Source: a virus. From it: a DNA stretch of 64,000 nucleotides. Positions 3,871-28,847 of the stretch are shown here, one piece after another. The notes beneath the pieces are model-generated. The model saw nothing but the letters and a program-made list of their open reading frames with translations. It did not search any database and had not been told where the DNA came from. Position 1 is the first letter of the stretch, and the number at the start of each line of letters is the position of its first letter. A program made the position numbers and the translations under genes. The stretch is taken from the IMG/VR virus record IMGVR_UViG_3300043543_000252, positions 1 through 64,000 of that record; one strand, written 5' to 3'.

Positions 3871-4491
3871 TTATCTTTTGTCTTTAGAATTTTTAAGAGT
3901 AGGGTATCTTATTTTTGGTTTTGGTAGCTGAACAAGTCTTAAATTACTTTCTGGAAGTAATCTGGGTATAGCTATATCATCTATTAAGCCCCACTCAAAA
4001 GCTTCTTTAGCTGTTAATGTCCAATCGGCGTTTTTTAAACTTCTTAACTTTTCTTCAAATTCTTTTACAGTTTTACCGCAGTCCTCAGCTAAATTTTTAA
4101 ACATTAGTTTATTGACAAAATTTAACGACTCAGCACTAGCTTTCACTTCGGTTGACTTTCCGTAAGCTCCACTTGAAACTTCATGAACTAAAATTAAAGC
4201 ATCGGGTGATGCAAACCGTAAACCTTGAGTACCTGCGGCTAATAGTACCGCACCTGCTGACATCGCTTTACCAAGAGCAATAGTCGCTACAGGTTTAGAT
4301 GATGACTTAATTAAATCTCTCATAGCAAAAGCTGAAGTAATATCACCGCCATAACTACTAACTACAATGACAATAACAGGTATATCAGGATTAGCTTCAA
4401 GTTCTAAAAACTGCTCATAAAAATGTTTTAGAGACTCATCAGTGAATTTATGCACCCAAATATAATTTGAAACTTCTTTAAAATCGCTCAT
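3871..4491 (-). CDS. ClpP-like serine protease
   Basis: The 206-residue protein has the ClpP/crotonase fold. The catalytic triad is visible as S78 in KAMSAGAVLL, H103 in ILVHEVSSG and D156 in NADWTLTAKEA, with the 25-residue Ser-to-His spacing of bacterial ClpP. The substrate-strand motif SSYGGD lies near residues 45-50. Phage ClpP-like proteins can mature capsids or act with host ClpX. Since a separate assemblin-type prohead protease is encoded at 15521, this one may process another virion protein or replace host ClpP. The C-terminal 30 residues are basic. Upstream is a 177-base spacer with a TAGTAT-containing element. Confidence 0.85.
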   Translation of the reverse strand: MSDFKEVSNYIWVHKFTDESLKHFYEQFLELEANPDIPVIVIVVSSYGGDITSAFAMRDLIKSSSKPVATIALGKAMSAGAVLLAAGTQGLRFASPDALILVHEVSSGAYGKSTEVKASAESLNFVNKLMFKNLAEDCGKTVKEFEEKLRSLKNADWTLTAKEAFEWGLIDDIAIPRLLPESNLRLVQLPKPKIRYPTLKNSKDKR

Positions 4492-4986: not shown

Positions 4987-6393
4987 TTAGAATATATTGT
5001 CAATCAATACGTTCTTACGAGGTTGATAGCCTACAAGAGTTAAGAATCTGAAGTGAGCTTCAGGTACTGATAAATCAGAGATAGCAAGTTTCATTCTGCT
5101 GTAAGGAGCTAACTCTTTATAAGCCCAAGTATTAGCTTGAATTAGGTAGCCAGTTGTGAAACCAGCAGCCTTGTTACCTAAGTCAATGAAAGTAGTTGTT
5201 GGGTTTTTGCTATTTTTTACTCTACCGATGAATTTAGCATTTGCAGCTGATGTTCCACGATAAACATTGAAGTGAGTAGCGTTAATAGCAGCACCAGCTG
5301 TAATAGTAAGAGTTACATATTCACCAGCATTTACTGTAATAGCAGATGAAGCAATTGGTGAGCTTTCCCCGATTTCATTTTCAGCAGTTACTACATAAAC
5401 ATAAGTACCAGCAGGAATGATTGCACCGCTACCACCTGAAGTTCCAGTAACGCTAGTAATTGGAGATGGTGCACCAGCAATTAGTCTAGTGAATAATGTT
5501 CTACCTCTTAAGAAGTTGCTTGACTCAAGTTGAACTTCACCTTCAGTTACCCATTGTCTTCTTAAATCCGCACCTGATACATCTTGAGCTTTACCAGCAA
5601 GAATAATACGTTGAATGCTGTTAACACCAGTTCCAAGTGCAATTTGTTTGTTATAACCTGCTAAAGCTACAGGGTCAACATAGAGTGTATCTGCTTCACC
5701 GAAATTAAGTCTTGAACGAAGAGAAGCATCTTGAATAATAATTTGGTCAAGACTACCATTTTTAGCAAGCACTACTGAAGTACTAGAACCATAAGCTGCA
5801 AACATTAAATCTTGAGTGCTTTGTAAAATATCAGATTGACGGATTTGAGCTGCTACACCGAGTATATTTGGTAACTCTGGCATAGCAAGTGGGTTACCAT
5901 CAAACACACCGTTGTTAGAGAAATCATCTTTACCTCTAAATGAGTCAAACTCAATATCACCTGCGATAACCATTGCAGTGTTTTCAGCTTCACGGTCTTC
6001 AGCTTTTACGCCGTCAATTGTATCAACCATGTTAGCAGCAACTGTAACACGAGTTTGTTTAGCGTAGAAGCACATAGGAACAACAGCTGATACATAGTCA
6101 CCAACGTTTAAGTTTCCTATTGCACCTTCTCTAACAGCTGAACCGCCAAATTGACCATAGCTAAGTTGTCTTCTGAATTGTACGAGTAAAGATTTATGTG
6201 GCTCAACGTCAAATAATTTTTGCAACTTAATATGTTTACTTTCAAAAGTCACTTTCTGCATTACAGGTTCAATTGGTATAATTTGTAATGCTCCGCCTTG
6301 TACCAATTGACCGGGAGCGACGTTGACATTGCCCGCTTCAAGTGTTTTCACAAGGTTTTGTAATACCTTATTTAGGTCGTTAACTGGGTTCAT
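4987..6393 (-). CDS. Major capsid protein with an Ig/FN3-like insertion
   Basis: The 468-residue protein has the position and architecture of an HK97-fold major capsid protein: it follows the scaffold gene and has a hydrophobic P-domain-like C-terminus. Residues about 315-400 form a Thr/Gly/Ala-rich beta block (PAGTYVYVVTAENEIGESSP, then HFNVYRGT), typical of Ig or fibronectin-III-like surface domains on phage capsids. Residues 14-36 (KTLEAG, NVAPGQ, VQGGAL) are nearly repeated in the prohead protease at 15521. A strong terminator follows. Assembly would depend on that protease and probably the phage chaperonin. No cleavage site could be fixed by eye. Confidence 0.88.
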   Translation of the reverse strand: MNPVNDLNKVLQNLVKTLEAGNVNVAPGQLVQGGALQIIPIEPVMQKVTFESKHIKLQKLFDVEPHKSLLVQFRRQLSYGQFGGSAVREGAIGNLNVGDYVSAVVPMCFYAKQTRVTVAANMVDTIDGVKAEDREAENTAMVIAGDIEFDSFRGKDDFSNNGVFDGNPLAMPELPNILGVAAQIRQSDILQSTQDLMFAAYGSSTSVVLAKNGSLDQIIIQDASLRSRLNFGEADTLYVDPVALAGYNKQIALGTGVNSIQRIILAGKAQDVSGADLRRQWVTEGEVQLESSNFLRGRTLFTRLIAGAPSPITSVTGTSGGSGAIIPAGTYVYVVTAENEIGESSPIASSAITVNAGEYVTLTITAGAAINATHFNVYRGTSAANAKFIGRVKNSKNPTTTFIDLGNKAAGFTTGYLIQANTWAYKELAPYSRMKLAISDLSVPEAHFRFLTLVGYQPRKNVLIDNIF

Positions 6394-7256
6394 TATTGTT
6401 TTCCTCCTTTAGTTAATAAAATTTTTTCAGCTTCGTTTTTATTTATACCTTTTAAGAAATACCCCATAATTACTGTATTTTCACTCTTACTGAACGAAGA
6501 TGGTCCTAATTTTTTATACATTTGAGACATCTCTTCGTGAGTAAGAGATTTTTGCATATCACTTGCTTCAGATTTAGCAATATACCCAAGTTCTGCAATT
6601 TGAGTTATTGCTTTTCTTTCTGGTTTAGCAAGTGTAGCAAATGCTTTTGTCAAAAGAGCTAATGTTTTAGTTTGCTCATTAAGTTGAGCTTTCAATAGAG
6701 CTATTTCTTTATCTTTTTGCGATTTTGATAAGTTAGAATTTTGATTCTCCGATTTCATAGCTGGAGCTTCAGGTGCTGGAGCTTGTTCTTCTGAACCTTC
6801 TCCACCTTTAGATTGTAAGATTTCTCTTATAATCATAAAGTGTTTTTCTAACTCATCTATCGGCATTGCACTATAAACTTCACGAAGCTCATCATCACTA
6901 AGAGGTTGGTCCAAATTTTCTTCCATAGAGTTATCTTGAGGTTCTTCTTCTTGCTTTGGAGCTTGCATTTCTTGGTCATCTTGAGGTTCTTCTTCTTGCT
7001 TTGGAGCTTGCATTTCTTGGTCATCTTGAGGTTCTTCTTCTTGCTCTGGAGCTTGCATTTCTTGACCTTTATTTTGCATAGCTTGTTCCATCTCTTCTGC
7101 TAAAGCTTCTTCTTTTTGTTTTTCATCCATATCATCGTCCTCTTCTGCCTTCTTAATAGCATTATTTCCGCTAGTCATATCAGCAATTGTGCTTTCAATT
7201 GATGCGATAATGCTATCAAGGTCGGCATCAGTAATGTTAATTTTGTTATTATTCAT
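6393..7256 (-). CDS. Acidic putative scaffold or prohead core protein
   Basis: The 287-residue, strongly acidic, Gln/Glu-rich protein lies directly upstream of the major capsid gene, sharing one base with it. Three tandem 15-residue copies of the type QEMQAPKQEEEPQDD occupy roughly residues 65-108. Downstream are coiled-coil-like segments (DKEIALLKAQLNEQ) and a helical, basic C-terminus, as in scaffolds whose C-terminal end binds the capsid protein. Assignment is by position, charge and low complexity. Confidence 0.65.
   Translation of the reverse strand: MNNNKINITDADLDSIIASIESTIADMTSGNNAIKKAEEDDDMDEKQKEEALAEEMEQAMQNKGQEMQAPEQEEEPQDDQEMQAPKQEEEPQDDQEMQAPKQEEEPQDNSMEENLDQPLSDDELREVYSAMPIDELEKHFMIIREILQSKGGEGSEEQAPAPEAPAMKSENQNSNLSKSQKDKEIALLKAQLNEQTKTLALLTKAFATLAKPERKAITQIAELGYIAKSEASDMQKSLTHEEMSQMYKKLGPSSFSKSENTVIMGYFLKGINKNEAEKILLTKGGKQ
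6933..7067. repeat. Three tandem 45-bp repeats in the scaffold gene
   Basis: Units start at 6933, 6978 and 7023. Copies one and two are identical; the third differs by a few bases (Glu for Lys in one codon). They keep the reading frame, so copy number could change without a frameshift. They encode an acidic, Pro/Gln-rich linker. Confidence 0.9.
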
Positions 7257-7909: not shown

Positions 7910-8341
7910 TTAAAATTCTAAAAACAATCTTTCAGTGCAAATACGATTACTTGAAATTGCATTATTAGATTGTAAGATAATATAAGAAGTAGAGTCTAAA
8001 GATTTTTGTAAAGATGCTTCTGCAACCTTTAAACCTCTTTTTTTAGCCCAAGCAATTGCGGCTTTTTTGATTTTTTCGGAAACATTACTTCCAAAATCAA
8101 ACCTCACTTCTCCATTTTCGTATTTAGAAAAAAGCACATCATGTTTTTTAAGTTGTGATTTATACAAATAATCTTCGAATGCAGTTAGAACAATACGTTC
8201 TGCTTTACTTACACGCATTGGCGGTAAAATATCTTGATGAAATCTTTTGAGCCATTTTCTGAACCGATAAGCAAGTCTTGGCGGAAGTGCCTTTTCTAAC
8301 TCATCAATAGATTTAAAAATCCTAACTTTTTTTGCTTTCAT
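7910..8341 (-). CDS. Unrecognised basic head-cluster protein
   Basis: The 143-residue protein is Lys/Arg-rich (KAKKVRIFK at the start, KKAAIAWAKKRG near residue 90) and helical in its first two thirds, with no known domain. It follows the giant solenoid gene by 18 bases, and the CCTAATCT element lies between them. Basic charge would suit DNA or capsid-interior contact, but this is inference. Confidence 0.65.
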   Translation of the reverse strand: MKAKKVRIFKSIDELEKALPPRLAYRFRKWLKRFHQDILPPMRVSKAERIVLTAFEDYLYKSQLKKHDVLFSKYENGEVRFDFGSNVSEKIKKAAIAWAKKRGLKVAEASLQKSLDSTSYIILQSNNAISSNRICTERLFLEF

Positions 8342-8351
8342 AACATTTATA

Positions 8352-8359
8352 AGATTAGG
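8352..8359 (-). promoter_or_regulatory. CCTAATCT element upstream of the 7910 gene
   Basis: The minus strand reads ACCTAATCTTATAAATG just after the stop of the giant protein gene and 11 bases before the next start. It is one of five copies of this octamer at minus-strand gene junctions. Confidence 0.4.
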
Positions 8360-11300
8360 TTATTTACTTGACTTTAAGTCGTAAACCCAACAATCACCTA
8401 CTTGACCCATTTTCTGTTCAGCTATACGAGCAAAAAATGGGTCTGCAAATGGAGTTTCCATGTATGGTATTGGTTTAAAACCTAATGATTTTGGATGGTC
8501 ATGATAACGTTCAATTAACCATTTAGGGAAGTAATCCCGACTATAAAATGAGACATCATCTTTAGAATAAATTTCTCTATCAGGTACATCGCCAATAGAA
8601 ATAGTTGCCATAACTTCTGGAGAATACATATACAATTTTTCTACTCCATGATTGATAGCGTTTTGCTTAACAGCTTCAAATAATACATCATGGATATTTT
8701 TAAATAAATTAGATATGTTTTGAGTATATTTTTCTAATTCATCTTTAGTGTACGACATTTGACCTAATTTAATAACATCTGCTCTTTGCATAATTGCTCT
8801 TAAATTTCGTTTCCACTTTTGCGCCACATCAGACTGTAAATCTTCTACAATCCATCCTTTATTGCCCGCAGAAGTATCAATTCTCACAACCCCCATAGTA
8901 AATGGTAAGATAGGATGAGACCAAAGTTTATTACGTGGTCCACGATTATCAAATTTTATAATATTATGCGCAAGATTAAAGTATAAATTCCATAATTTTG
9001 GGTCTGCGCTCAATGTATCTTTAATTTGCTGTGAAACATTCACGTTAATTAGTAACTCATGATTTAAACGAGATGTATCATCAATGCCGCCGCCGTAGTA
9101 TTTAAAATATCTTGGCCTATTTACAATGATTGGCCAATAACCGTAAGTAATAAAGTATTGTTGTTTTTGGGCTTGCTTATATTGATTATCAATAGCTTTT
9201 ACAAAATCTTCAGGATAAACTAAATTATTAGAACCTTTTGCCATAAATACAGACTTAATCGCATCAGCTTGATTAAATTTTGGATTTTTTTGTTTTGCTT
9301 CTACCCACTTAATACCACTTGTTGGAATAAGAGACATAGCTTCTCTTAACTGCGAAATAGTTTTAGTGATTTTAGAATCTGGCATTTCTAAATTTCTAAT
9401 TAACTTCTTTTCATCTACATTTGGTATTTTTTTGGTTTTTGCAATATAAGAAAATGAAGGTGCAGGCATATGACCAAAATCTGTAATTGGTCTTGGAATT
9501 GTAATGTTTGGTGTTGGTAAAACATTTGGTAAAGAATGTAAATAATCTAAACCCCAAGTTGGATTTAATAATGCTGGGTGAACATAACCGTATGGGTCAG
9601 TAACACCTGACGGTGTGTAATAAGAATATGGAACTTGATTTGCCAAGTAGTCAAATTGCTCTTTAGTCAAATTAGGGTTACGTATCAAATCATAATACAA
9701 ATCATGATAAGCAGAATTTTGACCAACAGGTATATTTCTAATGTAATTGCCAACTTTATCATATACTACCTTTAACGCATCAGTAGATAAAAATTGATTG
9801 TTTGCTAATTCTTTTAAAACTTGTTCTGCATCTGTTTTAGATAAAATTTTTTGTACTGCTTCTTTCGTTAAATTTTTGTTTTTAGATAAACTCATTAAAG
9901 TCTTTATATTCCAAGTCATTCCAAAAACTGACGGAGAATCTAATAATTGGTCTAACACAGTAGGCGATAAATTAGCATGCTCTAAAGCTGCGTTATAAAA
10001 TTCATGCGCAACCGATTTATTTTTAAAAAATTGTCCTAAGTACTCAATGTTTGGTACTTGTTTTGATATATTTTTTGAGAATAAATTGAAAAAAGTATTA
10101 TATTTCACTTCATCTGGAATTTGAGAATTAGTAAAAATACGGTCTATTAACCCTTTATCCATTAAAAACGATAAAGCATCAGATGTGCAACGGTTAATGA
10201 TTCTAGGTACGAGTTCTGCAATATCACTATCAACATCCTCCATTCCTAAAGTAGTTTCTGCTACCCACTTATCAATCTTTGGCATCATAGGCAAAAACAC
10301 TACATTACTTGGAGAATAAATTAAATCATGCCAATTGTCTTTATCTTTTTCGTCTTCTAGAATACCATTTTTAAATAACGAACTTAAAATTAAAGTTTTT
10401 TCGTTATCTAATGACTCTACAGCACCTAATTTAGGGTGTCTAGCATCAATTACACTAAAAATAGTCTTAACTAATTTACTAGGTATGCTAATAGAATTAT
10501 TAAGCATTTTAGCAAAATTAGAAAATACGTTTTGTAATAAAGGCTCATCAATAGGTAAGCGTAATAACCTAGTTACAAACTGAGTTGCATGATTTATAGC
10601 ATTATAATAGCTTTCTTTCTTTGTTTCAGGTAGATTGATATTGTCGTTAATACCTGTATTTTCAAATAATTGAGCATAATTTTGTAATAGCGAAATACCT
10701 TCATCAAGTGGAATACTCTCAAAATCAAATTTTGTACTAATATCTTTTAGGAACTTATCAAATCTCATACTCACTTCATCGGCTAATATGTGAGTATTGT
10801 ACTTTAATAAATTATCGTTATTTTCGTTAGCATAAGTTTTTAAACGACTAATGACAGTTGCTAAATCATCACTTGCACTTGCTAACTGTAACATTCTATC
10901 TCTTAAATTATAATCCATTCTCGTATTTAAAGCGGCTCTATATAACAAGTTAGGCAATTCATCTTTTATGTCAGGCTCTTGAGAATTAAGAGCTCTATCA
11001 ATTACGGTAGTTAAATTATCTGGGTCTAAGTGATTAGCATTATTCATTAAAAATTTTAATTTAAATCCTTTTTCTGAATTAGCAACTACCTCTGGTTGAT
11101 TTATAAATGCAGGAGATGGATTATCAATAGTAATTGGTAATGAATCTGGAAGGGATGTGTAAAGCTCAATTTGCTGATGAAGTGGGATTTTATCTTGAGT
11201 AATTAAATTTGCTATTAAATTCATTGCCTCAGTAGCAATAGGTTTAGATGTATCAACGGTATAGCTTCTAATAGTATTTAAAACAAAATTAGCTTTTTCT

Positions 11301-14300
11301 GGGTCTTTATCAAAATCTAAATGATTAGTAAGTTGATTAAGAGCTTGGCGTTGTTCATTATAATTTAAATTTGGAACATCTAATTTATTTAATAATTTTG
11401 CTAAAAAGTTATAACTTAAAGTTGGAGTACTAAGTACTCTATTGATTAAGGCATCTTTTTGTAATTCAGATAAAGCGGGTAGCTTATTAAGAATCCTTAA
11501 AATATGAGATTCATTAGATTTAGTAGGTTTAGCTTTAAATACCGCAGTTGCAAATTCAAGATGCTGTTTACTAATCGCCCAAGACATTAGTCTATCTGCA
11601 AGTGAATCGCTCGCATTTACTTTTGCTTTTAAATCTTTTGGGTTAATAGAATAAATTAACGCACGCAAAGCTGTTTCTTTTTTATTATCATCTACTTTCG
11701 ATGATAAAACGTGGTCGATAAGTTTCTTTTGAAAAGTTGATTTTATATTTTCATCCCCAATTTTATTTACAAAATTTTCTACAAAATCATCAAGTAAATG
11801 TGGTTGATTTTCTAAAAGATTACTAAACAATTTAATCGGAATAGCACCTTCTTCTAATTCTTGTTTTATAAATAAATCAGGTGTAAAATTTTTAATTAAA
11901 TCAGGAGTTAATGATAAGTACTCGGTAGGGTGTATATTAGATAGTGTATCTTTGATAGCATCTTTTAAAGTATTTTTATCATCTTCTGTATTAGAAGCAT
12001 TATACGCAGATAATAAATGTACCAATTTATGAGTATCACTACCTTCTAAGTTAACCTGCGACGCATTATGAGCATCTAATAGCCCATTTTGATATAATTT
12101 ATTAACTAAATTAGAATTGTTTTTAAATCTACCTAAATCTTCTAAAGTAATTTTGGCTTCTGGTTGATTTTTGATAGTTTCTGTATAATGTTTCACATTT
12201 GGCTGTAAAAATGGGTCTTCTAAAGCGTTTTCTAATAAATAACTCCCAATACTTGCATAATCCTCACCTTTATTTTCGAATGCTTGTAAAAAGTTTCGAA
12301 TACCTTCATTAAAAAATCCGTTTTCCATGAAATATAAATGAGCTAATTTATTTAAATTAGTAGGTTTATCTAAACTTAATAATTTATCACTAATTTTATC
12401 TATGTTATAAATTTCTCTATTTCTATTGTGATAGTGCGCTAGTTCGTGAAAAACCTTTGGACTCATTTCTATGTCGTGAATATTTTGAACTTCATCATTT
12501 AAAAGTTGATGTGCTATATTAGCATAATAATCATTATTATTTGTACGCTTATTAAATAAATTAACTAATGCTAAACCTGTTTCATCATTAGAACGAATTA
12601 AATTTTTAATGGTATCAAAAGGTAATTTATTTTGTACAATATCAGGGTGGTGAGCGATAACTTGAGTAATATCATTTGGTGAAAGCTTAGAAATAGCTTC
12701 TTGCCATATATGCATTGGAGCTTTTGCAGACCTTGCTATCAAATTAAAAGCATTATCATTATTTAAGCTTAAAATTGTTTCAAACATTTTTTGTTGAGTT
12801 TCAGGATTTTCATGAAATACCGCTCTTTTATCTAACACGGTATTTTGACTTTTATCTAGAGTATCATATACAAAAGGCTTATAATCTTGGCTTAAAACTT
12901 GAGATGCCAATTCTTTAAACGCTTCATCTGCCAATTTAGGATGTGAAAATAGAAGATTTCTTAATTTTAAATTTGATTCATCTTCTGGTTTTTCTTTAAT
13001 AGTATTGTATAAATCATTCACTAACTCTGCTGGTAAACTTGGTTTTTGTAAATCATGTTCAAGATAACTATCAATGTCAGTTAGGTTTACTAACCGAGAT
13101 TTGACTTTATCATAATGATTAGTCAATAAATTATAAATTGCCTTTTTAGTAGATGAATTGGAGACGTCGGCATGTTTTTCTAAATCACTCTGACTATCAA
13201 AAATATCATTTATATGCCTTAAAATTTTAGTGTCTAAATCTTGTTTTAAATGATTGAGTTGTTTTTTAGTTTCTTCGTCTGAAGCAACACCTAACTCTTT
13301 TTGCGTTAACTGATTGATTTTAGAAAAACCATCTACTAAGTTAGATTTTGTATCCAAATAATCTTGTAATCCGTCTAAAGAAGTCGGTTTTGTAAATGAA
13401 CTATAAGCTTTATGTAATACGTTTAATAAATCTAAATACTGTTTTTGAGTTTCTGGATTTTCGTATAAATTATTTAATAACAAATTATTTTGTTTATCAC
13501 TAAAAATATGAGAGCCTCTAATGCTACCATTATGAACTAACTGAGATAGTAAGCCTAAGGCTTCGGTATCGTATAATTTTTTAAGTAATAAGGAAGCAGA
13601 AAATTCTGGCTTAATATCAGCAGCCACTAACGCAGCGTGCTTAATCACTTCAGTATTTGCTTGAGGAGAATTAACTACATCATTTAAAATATCTAATGCG
13701 TGTGGTTGTTTTGGGGATAAATCTCTTACTTTATTTATTATATCTTTTAAAATTGATGGATTAGTATGAGGCGAAGTTGCTACCTCTTTAAATACCGACA
13801 AGTCATCAGTATGTTTCTTTTTATCCCAAAAATCAACAATCAAATCCGCAGGCGTATTAGAGTTTTTAACTATATTATGATAACCTTTTTTGTATAACTC
13901 TCTAATTTCATCTGGTGTAATGCTAGGATTTGAAGCTAACGCTTCAGCCATTTTTTGATGCGATTGCGTATCCTTCGTTACTAACATTTTTTTAATAACA
14001 CTTTTTTTAGTAGTTTCAGGTAAATTAGGATTAGACAAAGCGTGTAAAGCTTCGTTTGTAGCTTTTACATCATTTACCACTTTTGCCAACAAAACAGGGT
14101 CGGCATTATGGTGTGTTAAGATATTTCGCATTACTTTTTGATGAGCCTCTTTATCTTTTACCTCAACTGAACTTAAATAATTATATAAAGTATTTAAATG
14201 CAAGTGCTGTAAAGTAGGCTGTTTACTTAAAGCATCTAAATAACTATATTGGTTAGGTAAATTATGAGCATTTTCAATCAAAATCTTAACACGTTTTGTG

Positions 14301-14923
14301 TTAAAATCTTTATCCGCAGGATTAAATTTTTTAGTAGCAGAAAGACCATGCAAGGCAATGTCTTTTAAAGTATTTAAATGTTCTAAGGTGTTCTTATCTG
14401 TGTCAGCAGTTTGGTCTTTGACGTTTTCAATTTGTTTAGAAATATCATTATATAAATTTTCAAAGTATTCACCTGAAATATTATCTATATTTTCTTTAAC
14501 CGTATTGGTAAGAAATTGAGGTACTACCGAATAACTATTAAAAACTTGCGGGTTTTTAATAATTTTATCCAAAAAATCCGTAGTTTCATCTGGGTGATTA
14601 TTTATTTTTTGAAGCACAGAGTGTAATAAACCACTATTACTTGGTTGAGCTTCTAATTGCGAATGTTCATCTTGAATAATTTGTTTTTTAGTAAATGAAG
14701 CAGCTGAAGGGTGATTAAAAATTTTATTATTTAATAATAACTTGGTATCTGTTGATAAAGGTAACTGATTGACTTTCTCATATACACTTTGCAAAACTTC
14801 AGAATCTGTATTAGGGTGAGAAAGTATCCTCTGTAACTGCGGTACAGCATCTATTTCATTATCTGGTAAACTTTTTACCTGTTCTTTTAAAATATCTGAA
14901 TTAGATTTTTGAAGGTCTCTCAT
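8360..14923 (-). CDS. Giant alpha-solenoid protein, 2187 residues, probably virion-internal
   Basis: This is the largest gene in the window. About 1,700 residues consist of degenerate helical repeats with recurring short patterns such as HPNTDSEVL, NPSITPDEI and NPNLTKEQF, resembling HEAT or leucine-rich-variant solenoids. The C-terminal 400 residues form a distinct domain with GWIVEDLQSD. A similar (I/V)E(D/E)(I/L)QSD motif occurs, as I recall, in large polyvalent proteins of phages that are packaged and injected. Its place among head genes supports a packaged or portal-associated role. It overlaps the upstream gene by ATGA. No membrane segments are evident. Confidence 0.8.
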   Translation of the reverse strand: MRDLQKSNSDILKEQVKSLPDNEIDAVPQLQRILSHPNTDSEVLQSVYEKVNQLPLSTDTKLLLNNKIFNHPSAASFTKKQIIQDEHSQLEAQPSNSGLLHSVLQKINNHPDETTDFLDKIIKNPQVFNSYSVVPQFLTNTVKENIDNISGEYFENLYNDISKQIENVKDQTADTDKNTLEHLNTLKDIALHGLSATKKFNPADKDFNTKRVKILIENAHNLPNQYSYLDALSKQPTLQHLHLNTLYNYLSSVEVKDKEAHQKVMRNILTHHNADPVLLAKVVNDVKATNEALHALSNPNLPETTKKSVIKKMLVTKDTQSHQKMAEALASNPSITPDEIRELYKKGYHNIVKNSNTPADLIVDFWDKKKHTDDLSVFKEVATSPHTNPSILKDIINKVRDLSPKQPHALDILNDVVNSPQANTEVIKHAALVAADIKPEFSASLLLKKLYDTEALGLLSQLVHNGSIRGSHIFSDKQNNLLLNNLYENPETQKQYLDLLNVLHKAYSSFTKPTSLDGLQDYLDTKSNLVDGFSKINQLTQKELGVASDEETKKQLNHLKQDLDTKILRHINDIFDSQSDLEKHADVSNSSTKKAIYNLLTNHYDKVKSRLVNLTDIDSYLEHDLQKPSLPAELVNDLYNTIKEKPEDESNLKLRNLLFSHPKLADEAFKELASQVLSQDYKPFVYDTLDKSQNTVLDKRAVFHENPETQQKMFETILSLNNDNAFNLIARSAKAPMHIWQEAISKLSPNDITQVIAHHPDIVQNKLPFDTIKNLIRSNDETGLALVNLFNKRTNNNDYYANIAHQLLNDEVQNIHDIEMSPKVFHELAHYHNRNREIYNIDKISDKLLSLDKPTNLNKLAHLYFMENGFFNEGIRNFLQAFENKGEDYASIGSYLLENALEDPFLQPNVKHYTETIKNQPEAKITLEDLGRFKNNSNLVNKLYQNGLLDAHNASQVNLEGSDTHKLVHLLSAYNASNTEDDKNTLKDAIKDTLSNIHPTEYLSLTPDLIKNFTPDLFIKQELEEGAIPIKLFSNLLENQPHLLDDFVENFVNKIGDENIKSTFQKKLIDHVLSSKVDDNKKETALRALIYSINPKDLKAKVNASDSLADRLMSWAISKQHLEFATAVFKAKPTKSNESHILRILNKLPALSELQKDALINRVLSTPTLSYNFLAKLLNKLDVPNLNYNEQRQALNQLTNHLDFDKDPEKANFVLNTIRSYTVDTSKPIATEAMNLIANLITQDKIPLHQQIELYTSLPDSLPITIDNPSPAFINQPEVVANSEKGFKLKFLMNNANHLDPDNLTTVIDRALNSQEPDIKDELPNLLYRAALNTRMDYNLRDRMLQLASASDDLATVISRLKTYANENNDNLLKYNTHILADEVSMRFDKFLKDISTKFDFESIPLDEGISLLQNYAQLFENTGINDNINLPETKKESYYNAINHATQFVTRLLRLPIDEPLLQNVFSNFAKMLNNSISIPSKLVKTIFSVIDARHPKLGAVESLDNEKTLILSSLFKNGILEDEKDKDNWHDLIYSPSNVVFLPMMPKIDKWVAETTLGMEDVDSDIAELVPRIINRCTSDALSFLMDKGLIDRIFTNSQIPDEVKYNTFFNLFSKNISKQVPNIEYLGQFFKNKSVAHEFYNAALEHANLSPTVLDQLLDSPSVFGMTWNIKTLMSLSKNKNLTKEAVQKILSKTDAEQVLKELANNQFLSTDALKVVYDKVGNYIRNIPVGQNSAYHDLYYDLIRNPNLTKEQFDYLANQVPYSYYTPSGVTDPYGYVHPALLNPTWGLDYLHSLPNVLPTPNITIPRPITDFGHMPAPSFSYIAKTKKIPNVDEKKLIRNLEMPDSKITKTISQLREAMSLIPTSGIKWVEAKQKNPKFNQADAIKSVFMAKGSNNLVYPEDFVKAIDNQYKQAQKQQYFITYGYWPIIVNRPRYFKYYGGGIDDTSRLNHELLINVNVSQQIKDTLSADPKLWNLYFNLAHNIIKFDNRGPRNKLWSHPILPFTMGVVRIDTSAGNKGWIVEDLQSDVAQKWKRNLRAIMQRADVIKLGQMSYTKDELEKYTQNISNLFKNIHDVLFEAVKQNAINHGVEKLYMYSPEVMATISIGDVPDREIYSKDDVSFYSRDYFPKWLIERYHDHPKSLGFKPIPYMETPFADPFFARIAEQKMGQVGDCWVYDLKSSK

Positions 14924-15540
14924 TGCTTCTTATCTCCGTACTTAAAGAGATATAACATTTTTTTAACAAAATCTGGGTCTTCAGCATCTGAATAATCTTG
15001 GGATTCAATATTGTAATCATAGTTAGCATTACTCATTTTATCTAACCTATCTTGATTGCGTACATATTCTAGCATATATTTTAAATAAGTCGGATTTAAA
15101 CGTGGCTTCTGTCTAATTTCTGTATTAGTAGTAGAATTTTCTTGAACTTGTTTTAATGCAACTGATATTGGTAAACTACTACCATCTTGGCTAGCTACTT
15201 GTAATTGATTGGTTGCTAGTAAATTTAGAAGCTGTTGTTTTTCTATATCACTTAAAAGTGTACCATTTACAAACATCGTTTTTAAATCATTAGTTACTTC
15301 TACTACATCACCATTATTTAATAAATATCGAATAATACTATAATTTTTTAAGTCATCTTTTTGTAATTCTAAATGAGAAGATTGATTTATAAAATTTTGT
15401 AATTTAGAAAAATCATCTCCTGCTTTTTTAGGTAACTCACCTTTAGTATTATCTAAAATAAACTGAACTCTTTTACCGTCAGTACGAATTTTTGCTACTA
15501 TTACTTTAGATTCGGTTGATTTAATTATGTACGTTTCCAT
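14920..15540 (-). CDS. Unrecognised structural-cluster protein
   Basis: The 206-residue protein starts with a beta-rich 50 residues (METYIIKSTES, KVIVAKIRTDG), followed by charged helical sequence and an acidic, Tyr/Asp-rich C-terminus. It overlaps the protease-kinase gene by 20 bases and the giant solenoid gene by 4, so the three are translationally coupled. No family is recognised. Confidence 0.7.
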   Translation of the reverse strand: METYIIKSTESKVIVAKIRTDGKRVQFILDNTKGELPKKAGDDFSKLQNFINQSSHLELQKDDLKNYSIIRYLLNNGDVVEVTNDLKTMFVNGTLLSDIEKQQLLNLLATNQLQVASQDGSSLPISVALKQVQENSTTNTEIRQKPRLNPTYLKYMLEYVRNQDRLDKMSNANYDYNIESQDYSDAEDPDFVKKMLYLFKYGDKKQ

Positions 15541-17236
15541 CCGAAGACCCTCTTACTAATATACCATTTATATTTTCTTCTAACTCTAATAATTTATTTA
15601 AAAGATAGTTAATCGGCTTTTTATCTGTTAATAAATGTTGAAGCAATCTTAACCTTGCAAATGCTTTTGCAATGGCTTCTTGAGGTATAGAATGACGTTT
15701 TAAAATTTGAACTAATTTTTGGCCATCAATAGACTCAAGCCACTTCTCTACATTGTAAGGTAGAGTATTCTCTGGCGGCTCAGGTAAGGGGTTAATACTA
15801 CTAAAACGAGCAATACCACTAGGAGTAATAGATGAATAGTCAAAAGCTTTATGGCTGTCAATTAAACGTGGAGTATTATCATAACCAATCATAGTATCTG
15901 TTATACCATCTCTATCCATTCCTAAAATCGTATCCATAAGTAAAATTTTATGCCATAAACCATTTTTTTTAGCTTCTTCTTCCATTTTTTCAGCTCTTTC
16001 TTTAGACTCAATCGGAGAAGTATCCCAATTTTTATAAGTAATATACATTGGCTTGCCACCTTGTACTTTTGGGTTTGAAGCGAACACAATGGTAGGAACC
16101 ACATCGCCCATATTAAATAAATTATGGGCAATATCATAATACGCTAAAGCTCTATTTCTTTTATCTTCATCAATTGTATCATCTATTCTTACTAATGCTT
16201 CCATGCCTTTATCATTTTTGGCTTTTTCAATATGTTTTGTAGTCGGGTAGTCAGGAGTCTCTGATGATACATATAAACCATTTAAAATCTGGCTTTGACT
16301 ATCATTTAAAGGTATAATAGAATCTGAATTAGTTAAACGAATTAAAGGTCTTAAACCTTTTTTTAGCGCTAAATCTTCTGCTAAGTTCTCAAAATGGTCT
16401 AAATACTCATCGGCTACTTCTGGGAGTGCGGCTTTAATAATTTCACGTATTTTTTTGGGAGTATGTAAATTTTGTTTAATGATTTCAAGTATTTTCGTTT
16501 TTATTTCATCTGGTATAATCGTTTTTTTCTTTGCTTTTTTAGTACCTGATAAAGCAGAACCTGCAACAGCTTGTGCTGGCGCGACATTTCCCTGTCCTGC
16601 ACTCAAAGTTTTTTGTAAATCAACTAATGCTAGTTTTAAAGCCTCAAACTTATTTAAATTTGGGTAAAAAGCAGAATCTAAAATAACACTATCTACTTCA
16701 ATTAGATGTTTACCTTCTGATTTACCAAGAGATTTTTCAACAATATCTTTATATTTATCATCTTCTAACAAATCAGCAATACAAGTTTTATTGCAAGGTC
16801 TTAAAGTAAAAGCAACTCTACGACCTACCGACCTGACTAAATGATTTCCCTTTCTTTCTAAAGTTGAACCCTCTATCGAAAAACCTGCCAGTAATTTTTC
16901 TTTTCTTTTTGCGTAATATCTAATCATTGCGGCAGCAGCTACAGCTCCCGGATGCTCCTCATCATCGAATAATTCAGCAATAATATAAACAAAAGGCTTT
17001 TTAACACTATCCCAGTACTTTTTTTGACGCTCATTTTCACAATCTTTTTCTGAAAAAATCTTTTTAGCATAAATAATATGACCAATAATATCATCAGGCT
17101 GACCATTTTCATGTTCAAAGTTGAGTACACCTTTCCCTTCAACTAAATCACTAATATCATGCCCTTTAATATCTAAAACTTCTCCAGATGAATCTAGATG
17201 CTGAGATGCGGCAATACCATCAATTTTAAGCCCCAT
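15521..17236 (-). CDS. Prohead maturation protease fused to a kinase-like domain
   Basis: Residues 1-150 look like an assemblin-type (XkdF/U35-like) prohead protease: H42 in LNFEHENGQPDDIIGHI and S120 in LLAGFSIEGS are the candidate catalytic His and Ser. Residues 207-229 (LQKTLSAG, GNVAPAQAVAGSAL) nearly repeat the N-terminus of the major capsid protein. Residues about 290-480 form a second kinase-like domain with ILLMDTILGMDRDG (D441, R442) and RLIDSHKAFDY (D460), related to the protein at 563; the usual loop Asn is replaced by Thr446, so it may be inactive. A protease-kinase fusion is unusual. Proteolysis of capsid and scaffold is the expected role. Confidence 0.72.
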   Translation of the reverse strand: MGLKIDGIAASQHLDSSGEVLDIKGHDISDLVEGKGVLNFEHENGQPDDIIGHIIYAKKIFSEKDCENERQKKYWDSVKKPFVYIIAELFDDEEHPGAVAAAAMIRYYAKRKEKLLAGFSIEGSTLERKGNHLVRSVGRRVAFTLRPCNKTCIADLLEDDKYKDIVEKSLGKSEGKHLIEVDSVILDSAFYPNLNKFEALKLALVDLQKTLSAGQGNVAPAQAVAGSALSGTKKAKKKTIIPDEIKTKILEIIKQNLHTPKKIREIIKAALPEVADEYLDHFENLAEDLALKKGLRPLIRLTNSDSIIPLNDSQSQILNGLYVSSETPDYPTTKHIEKAKNDKGMEALVRIDDTIDEDKRNRALAYYDIAHNLFNMGDVVPTIVFASNPKVQGGKPMYITYKNWDTSPIESKERAEKMEEEAKKNGLWHKILLMDTILGMDRDGITDTMIGYDNTPRLIDSHKAFDYSSITPSGIARFSSINPLPEPPENTLPYNVEKWLESIDGQKLVQILKRHSIPQEAIAKAFARLRLLQHLLTDKKPINYLLNKLLELEENINGILVRGSSDGNVHN

Positions 17237-17271: not shown

Positions 17272-18027
17272 CTATTTTTGATTTTTCCTTTGGTCTTCCC
17301 AAACATTGTAATTTAAACTTTTAAATTCAATCCTACCAAATTCATTAAAACCAAAATTTGGAGGTATGAACGTTAAAATATGACGACAATTAGGGTGCGT
17401 TGGACCAAGTGTAGGTATGGGATTTTTATAGTCTTTATTATAACCTTCTGCAAGTTCTGACATTTTATAAACCTTAGGAACTCGTATATTACTTTCTAGA
17501 TGCCAAAGTTTACGACAATTTTCGCACATTTTATCATCAATAACTCCAAGTTTTGCTACAACTGGGTCATCTACACCTACTGCCTGTGCAACTTGCTGGA
17601 TACCCTCTTTCTCTGCGTAAGCTTGGGTTATCCTAGTTTCTGTATTTAATAAAGTCTTAAGGTAAGAAGTAGTGTCTGCAAAATGGTCTTTGATTGATTT
17701 TAAAGCTTCGTCCCAAGTCTCAGCTTGCATTACATCATGCATAATACGGTTGGCCACTTGTAATTTTTTAGCATCTATATAGTTAGCCGTAATATCCGAT
17801 AAATGCTCAATATCCTCTTCATTTACTTTAGCACTTGGCGAAAACATGTGTGCAATCGTATAATTATATAGACCTTCTAAAGTATCAATTGGGTCTGTCT
17901 GTTTTACAACTTGGAAATAAATAGATGGGCCTTTAAAAAAACGACCTAACATTCTAGCCTTTAAGTCGTTAAACATATCATCTAAAATATCTAAAATAGC
18001 TTGACGTTGTTCCTTATTCAGTTTCAT
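17272..18027 (-). CDS. Mu gpF-like / SPP1 gp7-like minor head protein
   Basis: The 251-residue protein ends with the family signature: LLNTETRITQAYAEKEG near the middle, then IDDKMCENCRKLWH and PTHPNCRHILTFIPP, the Cys/His pattern of Mu F-like head morphogenesis proteins. These act beside the portal at the start of head assembly. The gene directly follows the portal gene, as is common. I chose ATG 18027 over an in-frame TTG at 18042; both lie inside the portal gene's 3' end. Confidence 0.82.
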   Translation of the reverse strand: MKLNKEQRQAILDILDDMFNDLKARMLGRFFKGPSIYFQVVKQTDPIDTLEGLYNYTIAHMFSPSAKVNEEDIEHLSDITANYIDAKKLQVANRIMHDVMQAETWDEALKSIKDHFADTTSYLKTLLNTETRITQAYAEKEGIQQVAQAVGVDDPVVAKLGVIDDKMCENCRKLWHLESNIRVPKVYKMSELAEGYNKDYKNPIPTLGPTHPNCRHILTFIPPNFGFNEFGRIEFKSLNYNVWEDQRKNQK

Positions 18028-20161
18028 TGTCGTCTTTATCAACGTTTTTTAAGACTTCTTGCATTTTATCTAATGCTTCTTTAGTTTTTTGTTTCCAATT
18101 TTTCAAATGAGTGTCAACAAGCTGTCTTTGTCGATTTAATAAAATTTTAGAAATTTTTGTATGATTACTTTTTACAGCTTTATTTAAAGACTCGCCAAAA
18201 GAGAATAGCCATTCTTCCATTTTTTGTTGGTCTTCTTCTGGATTGCCAGTAGGAAGTGGCGGTAGCTGACTAAAATCTTCTTCATGATTATGGTCTTCCG
18301 CTGCTTCTGGAGCTTGACTTTCATTTGGGTTAGCACCTTGCTCTTGAGCCATCTGTTGTTGCATTGCTTGTTGTTGCATCATCATTTGTTGTTGCATCAT
18401 CATTTGGGCTTTCTGTAGCATTATGTTTTGATATTGAAACCAAAATGGGTCTCTAACATATTGAAATCTTGGGTCTTTAGATGCACCTTTGCGATTAAAA
18501 AAGTTTTCTAAAATTTCTCCTACGGTTAGGTGTTGGAAAATCACTTGCTGGAAAGCTGGGTTTAAAGGAAATTTACCGCCTAACTCGTCTGGTAAAAGAG
18601 GTTTTTCTACTGCTTCTAAAACCTCATTATAAGTCATGTGCATAGCCATGTCTTGCTGTAAACGAGCTGACTCTTTTTCTGGACTATCTTGCTCTAAGCC
18701 AGCAAATATAATTTTATAGTATTTGGCGATTTGTGGGTCAATTTCAGGTAAAATATGAGTGTTAAATAAATCTTGAATATCATACAATAATGGACGAAGC
18801 CCGACATCTCTTGCTGCGGTCAGCTTCCACTCATTATTACTTTCAGCTAATGCTTGTGTATTAGTGCCTCTAGCAAGATGTGCATAACCGGGAAGCTCCT
18901 CTGGCGACATTTGGAAAGCTGATAAAATCACTCTGGCGTTATTATCCGATAGGTATTGAAACTCAGCATCTCTACCTGACATCTCTATCGGTTGCCAAGT
19001 AATATCTTCATTTGGACTAACCGCAAACACAGGCATACGCCATGAGTTTTGAACTGAATTTATAGATTGATGGAAATTTCTACTAATTTGTTGTATTCCG
19101 CCGTCATCAATAGAATCTGATTTAATCACTAGCATTCCACGAGCTGCGCGACCGTTTTGAAAGTATAATTTATTGTGAATTGTAATGTTAATATGAGTTG
19201 TAATAGCATTTAAAGCTTGGTCTATTGGAGTTAATGGATAACGATTATATTCTACATTAGTAGTTGGATAAAGATTATACCATATTAGTTCTTTTGCAGT
19301 AAAAGCTTGGGTTGGACGACCATTTATAACTTGCATGTAAACATATTCATCACGTTTATATTTTTCTGGGTCTAATTTTTCGTTTTTTAGTTGGGAAAGC
19401 ACCTCAATAGCTTGAACACGTAAACTAGGGTCATGCTGTTGACTTGGTACTACATAATAAATAGTGCCGCTATCTACTGGTCTAAACCCATAAAATACTT
19501 CTTTTAACTCACCGTCTTCTAATTTATAGGTGTATAATCTTTCAATACAAATCCTACCATAAGTTAACCCATCTCTTGTAATCATTTTTAATAATTGAGA
19601 TAGGTTAATAGGCGTATGTTCACCTACTACTAACCCATCGCCACAATTCCATAAGAATTTCTTTATATAATCTAAACGTTTAACGATTTTTTCTTTTTCT
19701 TCAGGAGATAAATCTAATGTCGCTTCTGTAATTTCTTCTAATTCAAATCCAATAGAAAACCTAGAAGTTCTGGGACGACCAAAAGAAGCGACAATATTAG
19801 AACGAGCTTGTAAAATTTGGTTAACTAATTCATCACCATTAACACCTGCAATTCTTTTAAGTAATGGGTCTGGCGTAAGATTGGTTTTCACATAATACAT
19901 TCCTAAAGCGCCAACCTGATTGGCGGTATATGGGTCAACATCAAACGCCATTCTGACAGTTTTACGTTCTTGTCTATTTAACGATTTTAAAATAGCAGGT
20001 AACAACCCCTCTTCTTTTGGAGAAGACTTTTTAACATCTTCTTCTTCCAAAAAAGGCATAACATTAGGGTCGGCTATATAAACTCTGCGTTTAGATGAAT
20101 TAGATTGATTATTATTTTGATTGTTGTCTTGATTATTGTTTTGGTTATTATTTTCAGCCAT
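18014..20161 (-). CDS. Portal protein
   Basis: The 715-residue protein sits between the terminase and Mu F-like genes. It has an Asn/Gln-rich N-terminus (first 25 residues), then a portal core with ITRDGLTYGRICIERLY, then long helices containing SAFQMSPEELPGY and the ARGTNTQALAESNNEWK segment typical of HK97/SPP1-type portals. A Gln/Met-rich stretch near residues 595-620 and an acidic segment precede a basic coiled C-terminus. The protein forms the dodecameric DNA channel and the docking site for terminase. The start is supported by overlap-free spacing from the gene upstream. Confidence 0.9.
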   Translation of the reverse strand: MAENNNQNNNQDNNQNNNQSNSSKRRVYIADPNVMPFLEEEDVKKSSPKEEGLLPAILKSLNRQERKTVRMAFDVDPYTANQVGALGMYYVKTNLTPDPLLKRIAGVNGDELVNQILQARSNIVASFGRPRTSRFSIGFELEEITEATLDLSPEEKEKIVKRLDYIKKFLWNCGDGLVVGEHTPINLSQLLKMITRDGLTYGRICIERLYTYKLEDGELKEVFYGFRPVDSGTIYYVVPSQQHDPSLRVQAIEVLSQLKNEKLDPEKYKRDEYVYMQVINGRPTQAFTAKELIWYNLYPTTNVEYNRYPLTPIDQALNAITTHINITIHNKLYFQNGRAARGMLVIKSDSIDDGGIQQISRNFHQSINSVQNSWRMPVFAVSPNEDITWQPIEMSGRDAEFQYLSDNNARVILSAFQMSPEELPGYAHLARGTNTQALAESNNEWKLTAARDVGLRPLLYDIQDLFNTHILPEIDPQIAKYYKIIFAGLEQDSPEKESARLQQDMAMHMTYNEVLEAVEKPLLPDELGGKFPLNPAFQQVIFQHLTVGEILENFFNRKGASKDPRFQYVRDPFWFQYQNIMLQKAQMMMQQQMMMQQQAMQQQMAQEQGANPNESQAPEAAEDHNHEEDFSQLPPLPTGNPEEDQQKMEEWLFSFGESLNKAVKSNHTKISKILLNRQRQLVDTHLKNWKQKTKEALDKMQEVLKNVDKDDNETE

Positions 20162-21161: not shown

Positions 21162-21169
21162 AGATTAGG
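21162..21169 (-). promoter_or_regulatory. CCTAATCT element at the terminase-20169 gene junction
   Basis: The minus strand reads ACCTAATCTTTAATG; the octamer overlaps the terminase stop codon (ACC TAA) and lies 25 bases before the next start, ahead of AAGGGAG. It is one of five copies at minus-strand gene junctions. Confidence 0.4.
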
Positions 21170-23024
21170 TCTCATCATCTCCGCCAAAATCCCATAAAAC
21201 GCTACCCGCTTTACCTCTTAAAGAACCTGTATTATTCACTATATTCTCTATTATTGGAGTTAAAGATTTTTCTAAATCAATTGGTTTAGGTGCATCTAAA
21301 GTTTCTAATTTTTTAATATCAGTTACCAATACTTCACCTTTAGCTGTAAATAAATTTTGACCCATATATCTTAAAGCATCGGCAATATCAGCATACACCC
21401 CGTCATCGGGTTCTTGAGTTAGGTTCCCAACTGAGTCTAATTTAAATGCGTGGTTTTTAAACATATCAATTAAAATTTGAGTTCTATCATGCCTAATTAC
21501 TTTAAGCCTTCTAACACCAGCTGCATTTACAATTTGACCTCTAATTGCTTCAATACCACCTCTTACATCTTTTTTAAATTCTGCACAAGGCATTTTATTT
21601 TTATTAAATGAACGAATAAACATAGGCTCAGCGGTATCCGCAAACCATCTTAAAGGTTTATAATTATCTCTAACCTCTTTTGCTAGTGATAACATTTCAT
21701 CAAACTCCAGCTTAGGTATTGAATAAGCATCAATTAACCAAAACTCATGGCTAGGAAGTAATGCGCCGACAACTAGCGCAAAAGCGTGCCTATACCCCCA
21801 GTCAACCCCTGCATAAAATTTAATACCATTTTCTTTTAAAAGTGAGACTAATTTTGTTAAATTAACATCTTTATTAAGCTTAACACCTAAATATCTTTCA
21901 AATGCTTGTTCAATAGTATAAACGTTACCATTGCCATCTGCACTATCCAAAAATCTTGGATAAACTAAACCTTGAGATTGAGGGCGTTTACATAACAATT
22001 GCGACTCAGCAATATCTGGGTCTTCATCACTTTTTGTAAACTGACTAATAGTAAAATCAATAGTTTTCCATAAACCACCTTTATCCTTAGGTGAACGTTT
22101 AGAAAGGTTACCCTTACAAACAGGAAGTAGCGGACATTTAGCACAACCACCCATTGCTTCAATAGGTTCGTATTTTTCTTTTTCTCTATCTGTAAGATTT
22201 GTAAATTCTTCTGGAGTTAAAGTAGAAAGAGGTAAGTTTTTACTAATATACCTTGTTTCTTTAGGTAAATCTGGTCTATGTCTTTCTGGGGGACAATACT
22301 CAGTAATATCTAAGATGTTCCATTTAAATACTTTATAGTTCTTTTTGATAGCAGCATCCCACTCCTGCGAAAAAAGTCCACCAGCAAATTTCAATGTAGA
22401 AGTTTTAATGGTTACAGGAAATTGACCATTAAAAGTATCAGGAATAAATTTAGCTTCTTTATATGCTCTCAATCCTTCAGCAGACCGAATAGTATCTACT
22501 TCATCCACCGTAAATATGTTAGTATGCGATGAATTAGCCCCAGTTACTGTACAAACAATAATTTTAAGACCAGCTTTAGAACCGTCTGGGTGTTCCAAAG
22601 AAACTTCCCGACTATTTTGAGAATGTAATTTTATATTATGATAGTCTAAGTATGGCTTTAATTTTAATAAAAATCTTTCAATATAATTCTGAGCAGCTGA
22701 AGCCTGCGGTACAATGGCTGCCATGTGAGCAATGGTTGCTTTAAAATGGAGCATTGCAATAATTGCAAATACTGCTTCAGACAGTGTTTTGTACGATGAA
22801 CGAGAAGAAATTACTAACACTTCTGGAGAGTTATTAGCTTCATTTTTTTCGTACATCTTATAAACTTCATACATCCACTGAATTGGACTAGAATTACTTT
22901 CTGGGTCAACAAAAGAGTCTGGAAACCACAAATCTAAAAAGTTACCAACCCATTTTTTTAAATGGTCTGGGCTACTAAAATGAACTAAAAATGTTTTTGC
23001 TAACTCTTCATTAAATGTATTCAT
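21165..23024 (-). CDS. terL: Terminase large subunit
   Basis: The 619-residue packaging motor has an N-terminal ATPase with an atypical Walker A (VISSRSSYKT, residues 71-80), a Walker B FTVDEVD (171-177), and a C-terminal RNase H-like nuclease with FYAGVDWGYRH (D408), WFADTAEP (D463) and ADIADALRY (D546/D549). Between them a CAKCPLLPVC cluster at 294-303 could bind zinc. It translocates DNA into the prohead through the portal and cuts concatemers. It overlaps the small terminase-like gene by ATGA. Confidence 0.92.
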   Translation of the reverse strand: MNTFNEELAKTFLVHFSSPDHLKKWVGNFLDLWFPDSFVDPESNSSPIQWMYEVYKMYEKNEANNSPEVLVISSRSSYKTLSEAVFAIIAMLHFKATIAHMAAIVPQASAAQNYIERFLLKLKPYLDYHNIKLHSQNSREVSLEHPDGSKAGLKIIVCTVTGANSSHTNIFTVDEVDTIRSAEGLRAYKEAKFIPDTFNGQFPVTIKTSTLKFAGGLFSQEWDAAIKKNYKVFKWNILDITEYCPPERHRPDLPKETRYISKNLPLSTLTPEEFTNLTDREKEKYEPIEAMGGCAKCPLLPVCKGNLSKRSPKDKGGLWKTIDFTISQFTKSDEDPDIAESQLLCKRPQSQGLVYPRFLDSADGNGNVYTIEQAFERYLGVKLNKDVNLTKLVSLLKENGIKFYAGVDWGYRHAFALVVGALLPSHEFWLIDAYSIPKLEFDEMLSLAKEVRDNYKPLRWFADTAEPMFIRSFNKNKMPCAEFKKDVRGGIEAIRGQIVNAAGVRRLKVIRHDRTQILIDMFKNHAFKLDSVGNLTQEPDDGVYADIADALRYMGQNLFTAKGEVLVTDIKKLETLDAPKPIDLEKSLTPIIENIVNNTGSLRGKAGSVLWDFGGDDET

Positions 23025-27912: not shown

Positions 27913-28587
27913 ATGAATAATACCGAAAGTTTTAATATGACAGAAAGCCAACTACAAGCATTAGTCGGTTGGCTCATACAAGATAAAGATTTTTTTCTAG
28001 CAGCTCATGAAAAAATAAAACCAAACTATTTTTATGACCCTATACTAAGCGAGATTTTTATAGAAATTAAAAAATTTTATAATAATTACAATAAATTACC
28101 TACAATAGAAGAATTAGATGGGGTCTTTTTTAAAAAATACGAGCAGTTATCAAAATACAAAGAACGAAAGGAAAAACTGCTATTATGCAGTGAGATGAGC
28201 CAAAAAATATCCTTACAATTCTTAATTGACAATATTACTACATTCCTTAAACAAGCCATTGCTATGAATGCACTAAAGGAAATGGTTAATTTTTGGAACT
28301 TAAAAAAATTCAATGAAGTAGTTACTCTTATTCATGCAACTTCTGATGAATTAAAAAGTATTCATTTTAATTATAATAAAGAAAATGAACAGAAAAAAGA
28401 GATAGACCATGTAGCCTTAAAATTTATTAAGATTATCCAATTCATAAAAGACCACCCAGAAAAATTAACTAAAGAAGATAACGACTTAATAGACCAATTC
28501 CTAGCCGAGTATTATACTAATAATACTTGGGATACAAGTTTAGTACCACATATTGCAGCCTTATACCAAAAAGTTAAAAACGAATAA
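27913..28587 (+). CDS. DnaB N-terminal-domain-like protein (half of a split helicase)
   Basis: The 224-residue protein matches the replicative helicase N-terminal domain at residues 10-70: ESQLQALVGWLIQD, then KIKPNYFYDPILSEIFIEIK and NKLPTIEEL. Beyond that it is helical and has no Walker motif. The RecA-like ATPase half is encoded separately at 31307. In intact DnaB this domain binds DnaG primase and builds the trimeric collar. Here it could act as a separate collar subunit or as a helicase loader. The ribosome site is AAGAGGAA. Confidence 0.68.
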   Translation: MNNTESFNMTESQLQALVGWLIQDKDFFLAAHEKIKPNYFYDPILSEIFIEIKKFYNNYNKLPTIEELDGVFFKKYEQLSKYKERKEKLLLCSEMSQKISLQFLIDNITTFLKQAIAMNALKEMVNFWNLKKFNEVVTLIHATSDELKSIHFNYNKENEQKKEIDHVALKFIKIIQFIKDHPEKLTKEDNDLIDQFLAEYYTNNTWDTSLVPHIAALYQKVKNE

Positions 28588-28655
28588 ACTTACCATATTA
28601 GTTCTTATTTATTCATTATAATCGTCATTACAATGAATGTTACATTTTATTATGT

Positions 28656-28738: not shown

Positions 28739-28750
28739 AAAGCACTTTGA

Positions 28751-28845: not shown

Positions 28846-28847
28846 TG

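Follow-up and report, generated by a model that had tools for sequence, protein, structure and literature searches.

A phage prohead protease fused to a PI3/4-kinase-like domain: a putative carrier for exchangeable signalling enzymes

Several described proteins share part of the architecture considered here, in which a head-maturation protease and a PI3/4-kinase-like domain are encoded as one protein. Gp3.2 of phage SPO1 (Herelleviridae) has a homologous protease domain, a linker motif similar to the one that opens the major capsid protein (MCP), and a gene placed after the portal gene and before the scaffold and capsid genes, but at 256 aa it has neither a kinase nor a GGDEF module, unlike the fusion in our window. 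The cultured Myxococcus phage Mx1 is a further case. Its protein WNM70322.1 (1239 aa) carries the same protease (42% over residues 3–293) and a C-terminal PI3/4K-like domain with an intact motif, the surrounding cluster is syntenic with ours, and each of the two viruses has a further separate kinase (WNM70334.1 in Mx1). Mx1 differs in its longer middle region, its intact active site and its separate GGDEF gene (annotated as the 'nucleotide cyclase' WNM70324.1), and the paper announcing its genome makes no mention of the fusion (PMC10720576). In UniProt, A0A6J5L1V5 from an uncultured Caudovirales phage is a whole-length fold match (E 6.4e-34) and, judging from that model-based match, is almost certainly the same protease-kinase fusion; it bears only the automatic name 'PI3K/PI4K catalytic domain-containing protein', with the protease part unnamed. 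The fusion is already in databases under automatic names of this kind (A0A6J5L1V5, and 'putative prohead protease' in Mx1), and no published description of it was found in the literature searched, which was mostly without subscription papers and without preprints.

In placing variable enzyme domains behind one putative carrier, the fusion resembles MuF-fused capsid effectors and polyvalent proteins, where a head-associated carrier bears variable enzymes, GGDEF and kinases included, that are thought to be injected (PMC5512222). In the survey of polyvalent proteins, assemblin-like peptidases are always C-terminal and the kinase belongs to another family, one without a C-lobe (PMC5512222), whereas the present protein has the opposite order, with an N-terminal protease, and its kinase is of the PI3/4K-like kind. 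For the kinase module itself, the closest branch is that of SCO1664, Fam20C and PI4K-II, which has similar DRHxxN and IDxG motifs, weak profile matches (TIGR03843, Fam20C) and a fold match (PI4KII); the profile matches fall below family cut-offs, and our family differs in being fused to a phage protease.

The fusion gene within the head gene cluster

The window, as we call the whole stretch of DNA analysed (64,000 nucleotides), is nearly all of virus record IMGVR_UViG_3300043543_000252, which has a length of 64,253 bases. Because the nearest relatives with long records have 98–158 kb, this record is probably a fragment of a larger genome. A first-pass annotation, made from the letters of the window, had placed a fusion gene at 15521–17236; an open reading frame of 571 aa with an ATG start was confirmed there, on the minus strand (which that annotation had not given) and with a 20-base overlap with the next gene. 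The gene lies between those for portal (18014–20161) and MCP (4987–6393), in a minus-strand head cluster with the order terminase, portal, MuF-like protein, fusion, 206-aa protein, 2187-aa protein, probable scaffold, MCP, ClpP-like protease and 609-aa kinase-like protein. The features are as follows, all on the minus strand.

21165..23024, minus: large terminase subunit (phrog_5653, 4.8e-14)
18014..20161, minus: portal protein (PF04860, 2.2e-12)
17272..18042, minus: MuF-like minor head protein, 256 aa (phrog_595, 3.8e-5; phrog_115, 2.7e-4); no toxin domain was seen in it
15521..17236, minus: fusion of a prohead protease with a PI3/PI4-kinase-like domain, 571 aa (open reading frame; architecture also in 30 further non-redundant relatives)
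16742..17236, minus: prohead serine protease domain, residues 1–165, with H42 and S120 (SPO1 gp3.2, phrog_1028, pLDDT, Foldseek against BFVD)
16538..16618, minus: linker motif, residues 207–233 (LQKTLSAGQGNVAPAQAVAGSALSGTK region), like the MCP N-terminus (profile matches to and from MCP)
15569..16366, minus: PI3/4-kinase-like domain, residues 291–556, with a degenerate active site (R350, D441–T446, D460; HMM, AlphaFold2, Foldseek, residue table)
14920..15540, minus: protein of 206 aa whose frame shares the last bases of the fusion gene (open reading frame); no significant family match in Pfam and PHROGs scans
8360..14923, minus: giant protein of 2187 aa, encoded between fusion and capsid genes (open reading frame); no family match in Pfam or PHROGs
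6393..7256, minus: acidic protein with repeats, encoded immediately ahead of the MCP, a probable scaffold by position only (open reading frame); no PHROGs match
4987..6393, minus: major capsid protein, 468 aa, with the N-terminal motif KTLEAGNVNVAPGQLVQGGALQ (phrog_752 major head protein, 1.2e-34)
3871..4491, minus: ClpP-like protease (PF00574, 2.3e-33)
563..2392, minus: second, separate PI3/4K-like kinase, 609 aa, with the motif NKDRNPGN...IDND intact (PF00454, 27.9 bits)

The giant protein at 8360–14923 was matched, at about 1950–2200 aa, in 7/7 close-relative records and had no match in 8 other records tested. To our reading its sequence looks like alpha-helical repeats, and a C-terminal stretch, WIVEDLQSDVAQKW, recalls polyvalent-protein domains; it is possibly injected too. 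The ClpP-like gene adjoins the major capsid gene. GC and AT skew both flip sign at about 28000–32000 of the window, which suggests that the coding direction changes there between two gene blocks. Compared with L006, a near-identical contig (relatives' loci are cited by such numbers), the window shows 0 differences in the protease-kinase and terminase genes, and its portal gene shows 9 non-synonymous and 2 synonymous differences.

Protease and kinase-like domains

Homology and the modelled fold identify the N-terminal 165 residues as a prohead (head-maturation) serine protease. Using tblastn, the fusion protein matches SPO1 gp3.2 (31% identity over residues 5–155, E 5e-7), proteins akin to gp3.2 (5e-7 and better) and, at 6e-63, the Mx1 protein annotated as 'putative prohead protease'; it also matches phrog_1028, head maturation protease, at 1.3e-5, and gp3.2 in turn matches Peptidase_S78 (PF04586). 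The first-pass annotation had proposed such a protease within the N-terminal 150 residues, with H42 and S120. Both positions are correct and are invariant across 24 aligned sequences, SPO1 included; of the catalytic triad, these two residues are the ones assigned here. A full-length AlphaFold2 model, made with 34 sequences, bore out the proposed fold, with a pLDDT of 92–98 for residues 1–165 and dozens of prohead proteases among the Foldseek matches in viral models (BFVD; E 3e-9 and weaker). The Pfam families that the first-pass annotation had pointed to, XkdF and U35, did not appear, as the Pfam scan of the fusion protein gave no S78, U35 or XkdF match; a missing Pfam match here is a detection limit and not a functional criterion. 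Sequence profiles of the protease domain found no solved structure in the PDB.

For the C-terminal half, a kinase-like core had been proposed in residues 290–480, and the two stretches named for it, ILLMDTILGMDRDG and RLIDSHKAFDY, are present. Taken alone, the C-terminus gave no kinase match in Pfam, PHROGs and NCBIfam scans and no match in tblastn against 50,697 phage records, and homology was therefore shown through relatives. An HMM built from the relatives' C-termini, excluding the window and the copy nearly identical to it, recovered the window domain at 3.8e-36, and one built from distant relatives only did so at 9.5e-22. When 200 shuffled sequences were compared with those HMMs, 0 were reported, and on these scores the kinase-domain match is not due to chance. 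Over the C-terminus, 11 close relatives align with the window, most of them with canonical PI3/4-kinase motifs (DRHxGN...IDND). PF00454 matches 20 of the family members scanned (best 2.5e-12), and a profile of 23 canonical domains, searched against PDB sequences, finds PI4KA at 1.7e-5 and, more weakly, mTOR, VPS34 and PI3K-alpha. The AlphaFold2 model of residues 292–571 (pLDDT 80.8, pTM 0.80) gave Foldseek matches in the PDB that are almost all kinases, with PI3K-gamma prominent, and with the full-length model the top PDB match was PI4KII-alpha (PI4K-II alpha; prob 1.00, E 6.9e-4), so the proposed kinase fold was recovered, with modest E-values. These PDB scores are modest throughout (TM < 0.45), such that the fold backs the sequence evidence and would be insufficient alone. 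From relatives' profiles and the model, residues 291–556 are assigned as a PI3/4-kinase-like domain (PF00454 superfamily), and both halves of the proposed fusion are thus confirmed by homology and fold. A SAM domain suggested at 489–523 (E 0.029) was dropped, as it is below the cut-off and inside the kinase C-lobe helices.

Most aligned relatives keep the Lys, catalytic Asp, loop Asn and metal Asp (K/D/N/D) intact, and for this reason their C-terminal family as a whole is predicted to consist of kinases. In the window's copy, the beta-3 Lys is replaced by Arg350, the catalytic-loop Asn is lost (the loop reads DRDGIT, or is shifted by one residue) and the metal Asp460 is kept. Thr446, already recognized in the first-pass annotation as standing in place of the Asn, is the sixth residue of DRDGIT and ends it. 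The binding role or different chemistry read from that replacement is well supported for the window copy, in which Arg350, previously missed, joins the lost Asn, but does not extend to the family, where most members are intact. Given Arg350 and the lost Asn, the window's fused domain is probably a pseudokinase. Other degenerate copies occur at L008, L011, L022, L029 and L057.

The separate 609-aa kinase at 563–2392 matches PF00454 with 27.9 bits against a gathering cut-off of 27.1, and its orthologues are present in the five nearest relatives with their motifs intact. In Mx1 (L108), the second kinase-like protein, WNM70334.1, is encoded at 12852–14711 and has what we read as a GNAT-like N-terminus, and a 1479-aa protein annotated as a NUDIX hydrolase is encoded downstream of the capsid gene (8405–12844). 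Both are candidates for further head cargo.

Exchangeable C-terminal modules and a linker motif common to protease and capsid protein

Relatives were gathered by searching with an N-terminal alignment, which gave 78 IMG/VR loci and two loci from MAGs. A scan of genome contigs with a single protein query had no match; the alignment query gave the two MAG loci, whose host labels are not trusted. The non-redundant set (n=69, window counted) consists of IMG/VR sequences, phage Mx1 and one MAG. A C-terminal kinase is present in 31/69, GGDEF takes its place in 10/69, and the other 28/69 have neither module or are cut by contig ends. Sixteen kinase-bearing loci have a separate GGDEF gene within the next few genes, and in L020 kinase and GGDEF are both separate genes downstream of the protease gene. 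Mapped onto a tree built from the protease domain, the GGDEF label has to change 4 times, at least 2 of them forced by starred branches; L040, which has GGDEF, groups as sister of the kinase-bearing L044 (support 99/98). As read from these sequences, the C-terminal module is exchangeable, with either a kinase or a GGDEF behind one protease, and all versions of the module stay within the terminase-to-capsid gene cluster. A search for GGDEF in the window's record and in the seven relatives close to it gave no match; these records have instead the giant protein of ~2000 aa in common.

Rarer partners of the protease are GNAT in L081, DUF6321 in L078 and L048, and ParB_N in L048, whose protease protein (7971–12677, 1569 aa) ends in DUF6321 and includes a kinase besides the ParB_N-like insertion. 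The prohead protease gene of L020 (7986–12269) holds an intein-like domain (PF14890, 3.9e-9). Long forms such as L003 (residues ~370–880) have a common middle region (GGSNVHVPDTHFTRYLFG ... FPAFWKNW), which gave no Pfam match and which leaves the impression, from its sequence, of a helix-hairpin-helix glycosylase.

Between protease and module, most relatives carry the motif K-x-[LM]-x-AG-x-x-[ND]-x-AP-x-x-L-x-x-G-x-ALQ-x-E. The MCPs of the same genomes begin with this motif, and the SPO1 MCP has a looser version of it. A profile of the protease matches the N-terminus of the window's MCP at 5e-6, an HMM of the MCP arm matches proteases down to 7e-13, and the window's MCP, used as a plain query, retrieves proteases of relatives at 1.6e-6 to 2e-4. 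For the window's own protease linker, the MCP-arm HMM gives 0.0097, which is weak on its own. In proteases with insertions, the motif shifts with the end of the protease (to 444 in L077 and 515 in L070). We take the motif to be a putative segment for head loading (prohead targeting) or for cleavage.

The conserved Glu of the motif is found in 50/54 proteases and in 40/41 MCP open reading frames with a recognised motif (duplicate contigs included), and the window is the sole genome in which it is missing from both proteins. There is thus a hint that this Glu marks a cleavage site; it stays a hint because the proteases of L055 and L078 also do without it (the L055 MCP keeps it). Residues 214–240 are disordered in the full-length model. 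With the model and the motif common to the capsid protein, the flexible segment 171–240 is a more likely place for separation than residue 150, where the first-pass annotation had put a possible self-cleavage. The likeness of the linker to the MCP N-terminus, the exchange of modules and the second, intact kinase were all invisible to that annotation from sequence alone.

Proposed function and alternatives

The reading we favour, as slightly more likely than not, is that the N-terminal protease is a capsid-loading carrier for exchangeable signalling enzymes, because other phages put a GGDEF in the same slot or in a nearby gene. The 165-residue protease would mature the head, and the C-terminal 265 residues would be the kinase-like module of a bifunctional head protein. 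As its middle carries a copy of the MCP N-terminal motif, the fusion protein probably enters the prohead, where the motif, in the flexible middle, would recruit it with the coat and scaffold shell; gene position and this motif are what point to an association with the virion. Inside the prohead the protease may sever the flexible linker of its own chain; the freed module would stay in the head, be ejected with the DNA and target proteins or lipids of the host during early infection. The protease would in this way carry a PI3/4K-like kinase in some phages and a diguanylate-cyclase-like GGDEF in others. In the window, the fused kinase probably serves as a pseudokinase partner or for binding, with the second kinase taking the catalytic role. 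Packaging, self-cleavage, ejection, targets, enzyme activity and the way in which the two kinases divide their roles are parts that we infer, the scheme being drawn from precedents: the SPN3US protease gp245, expected in wild-type heads, removes its own C-terminal 64 residues (PMC10052503), MuF provides known cases of enzymes that are fused to head proteins and injected from the capsid, and T4 Alt is likewise carried in the head (PMC5512222).

The main rival to this carrier reading places the kinase-like part in head assembly and not after ejection, either as a structural or regulatory C-terminal extension that keeps the protease inactive or as a domain with scaffold and capsid proteins as its substrates for phosphorylation or its binding partners, to be degraded afterwards. 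We consider it unlikely, although worth weighing. The MCP motif in the fusion protein would place the protein in the prohead, the 64-residue C-terminal propeptide of SPN3US gp245 goes by self-cleavage, and the degenerate active sites of the window, L008 and L011 fit binding. A plain propeptide, however, needs no intact kinase or GGDEF active site, yet most relatives keep one, and the swap of two unrelated folds at the same place fits cargo better than a specific inhibitor.

It is improbable, in our judgement, that the fusion is a matter of co-expression, with the kinase cut off in the infected cell and acting in the cytoplasm late in infection, unpackaged. The fusion is indeed non-essential, given that a separate gene directly downstream encodes the kinase in L020 and GGDEF in many relatives, but every version lies within the terminase-to-capsid cluster, and the MCP-like motif sits in the fused protein. 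We give even less credence to the window's C-terminal domain being a decaying leftover with no function. Its Lys-to-Arg replacement and lost catalytic-loop Asn could be read so, as could the degenerate copies in L008, L011, L022, L029 and L057, and two near-identical contigs that lack any difference in the fusion gene offer no selection signal. Against decay, the reading frame stays open over its full length, confidence in the model is good and the overall profile similarity is kept. Pseudokinases are commonly functional.

Returning to the carrier reading, a broader form of it is a possibility that we put forward tentatively: such 'polymorphic' prohead proteases, tethered to the capsid by their copy of the MCP motif, may be a general vehicle for loading exchangeable signalling enzymes (PI3/4-like kinases, diguanylate-cyclase-like GGDEF and others) that self-cleavage frees for ejection, with kinase/pseudokinase pairs in some lineages. 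Among 50,697 phage records searched with two kinase-module queries, Mx1 alone was found, and it is therefore the cultured phage in which the carrier reading can be tested. Prohead proteases have so far been regarded as pure assembly enzymes. If the reading is true, a group of 140–170 kb phages would have a second carrier principle beside MuF and T4 Alt, delivering at infection, and would use PI3/4K-like and GGDEF chemistry, in contrast to the ADP-ribosyltransferases and nucleases that mainly make up the known head cargo. The motif common to protease and MCP would also be a specific candidate for the signal by which proteins are loaded into SPO1-like heads.
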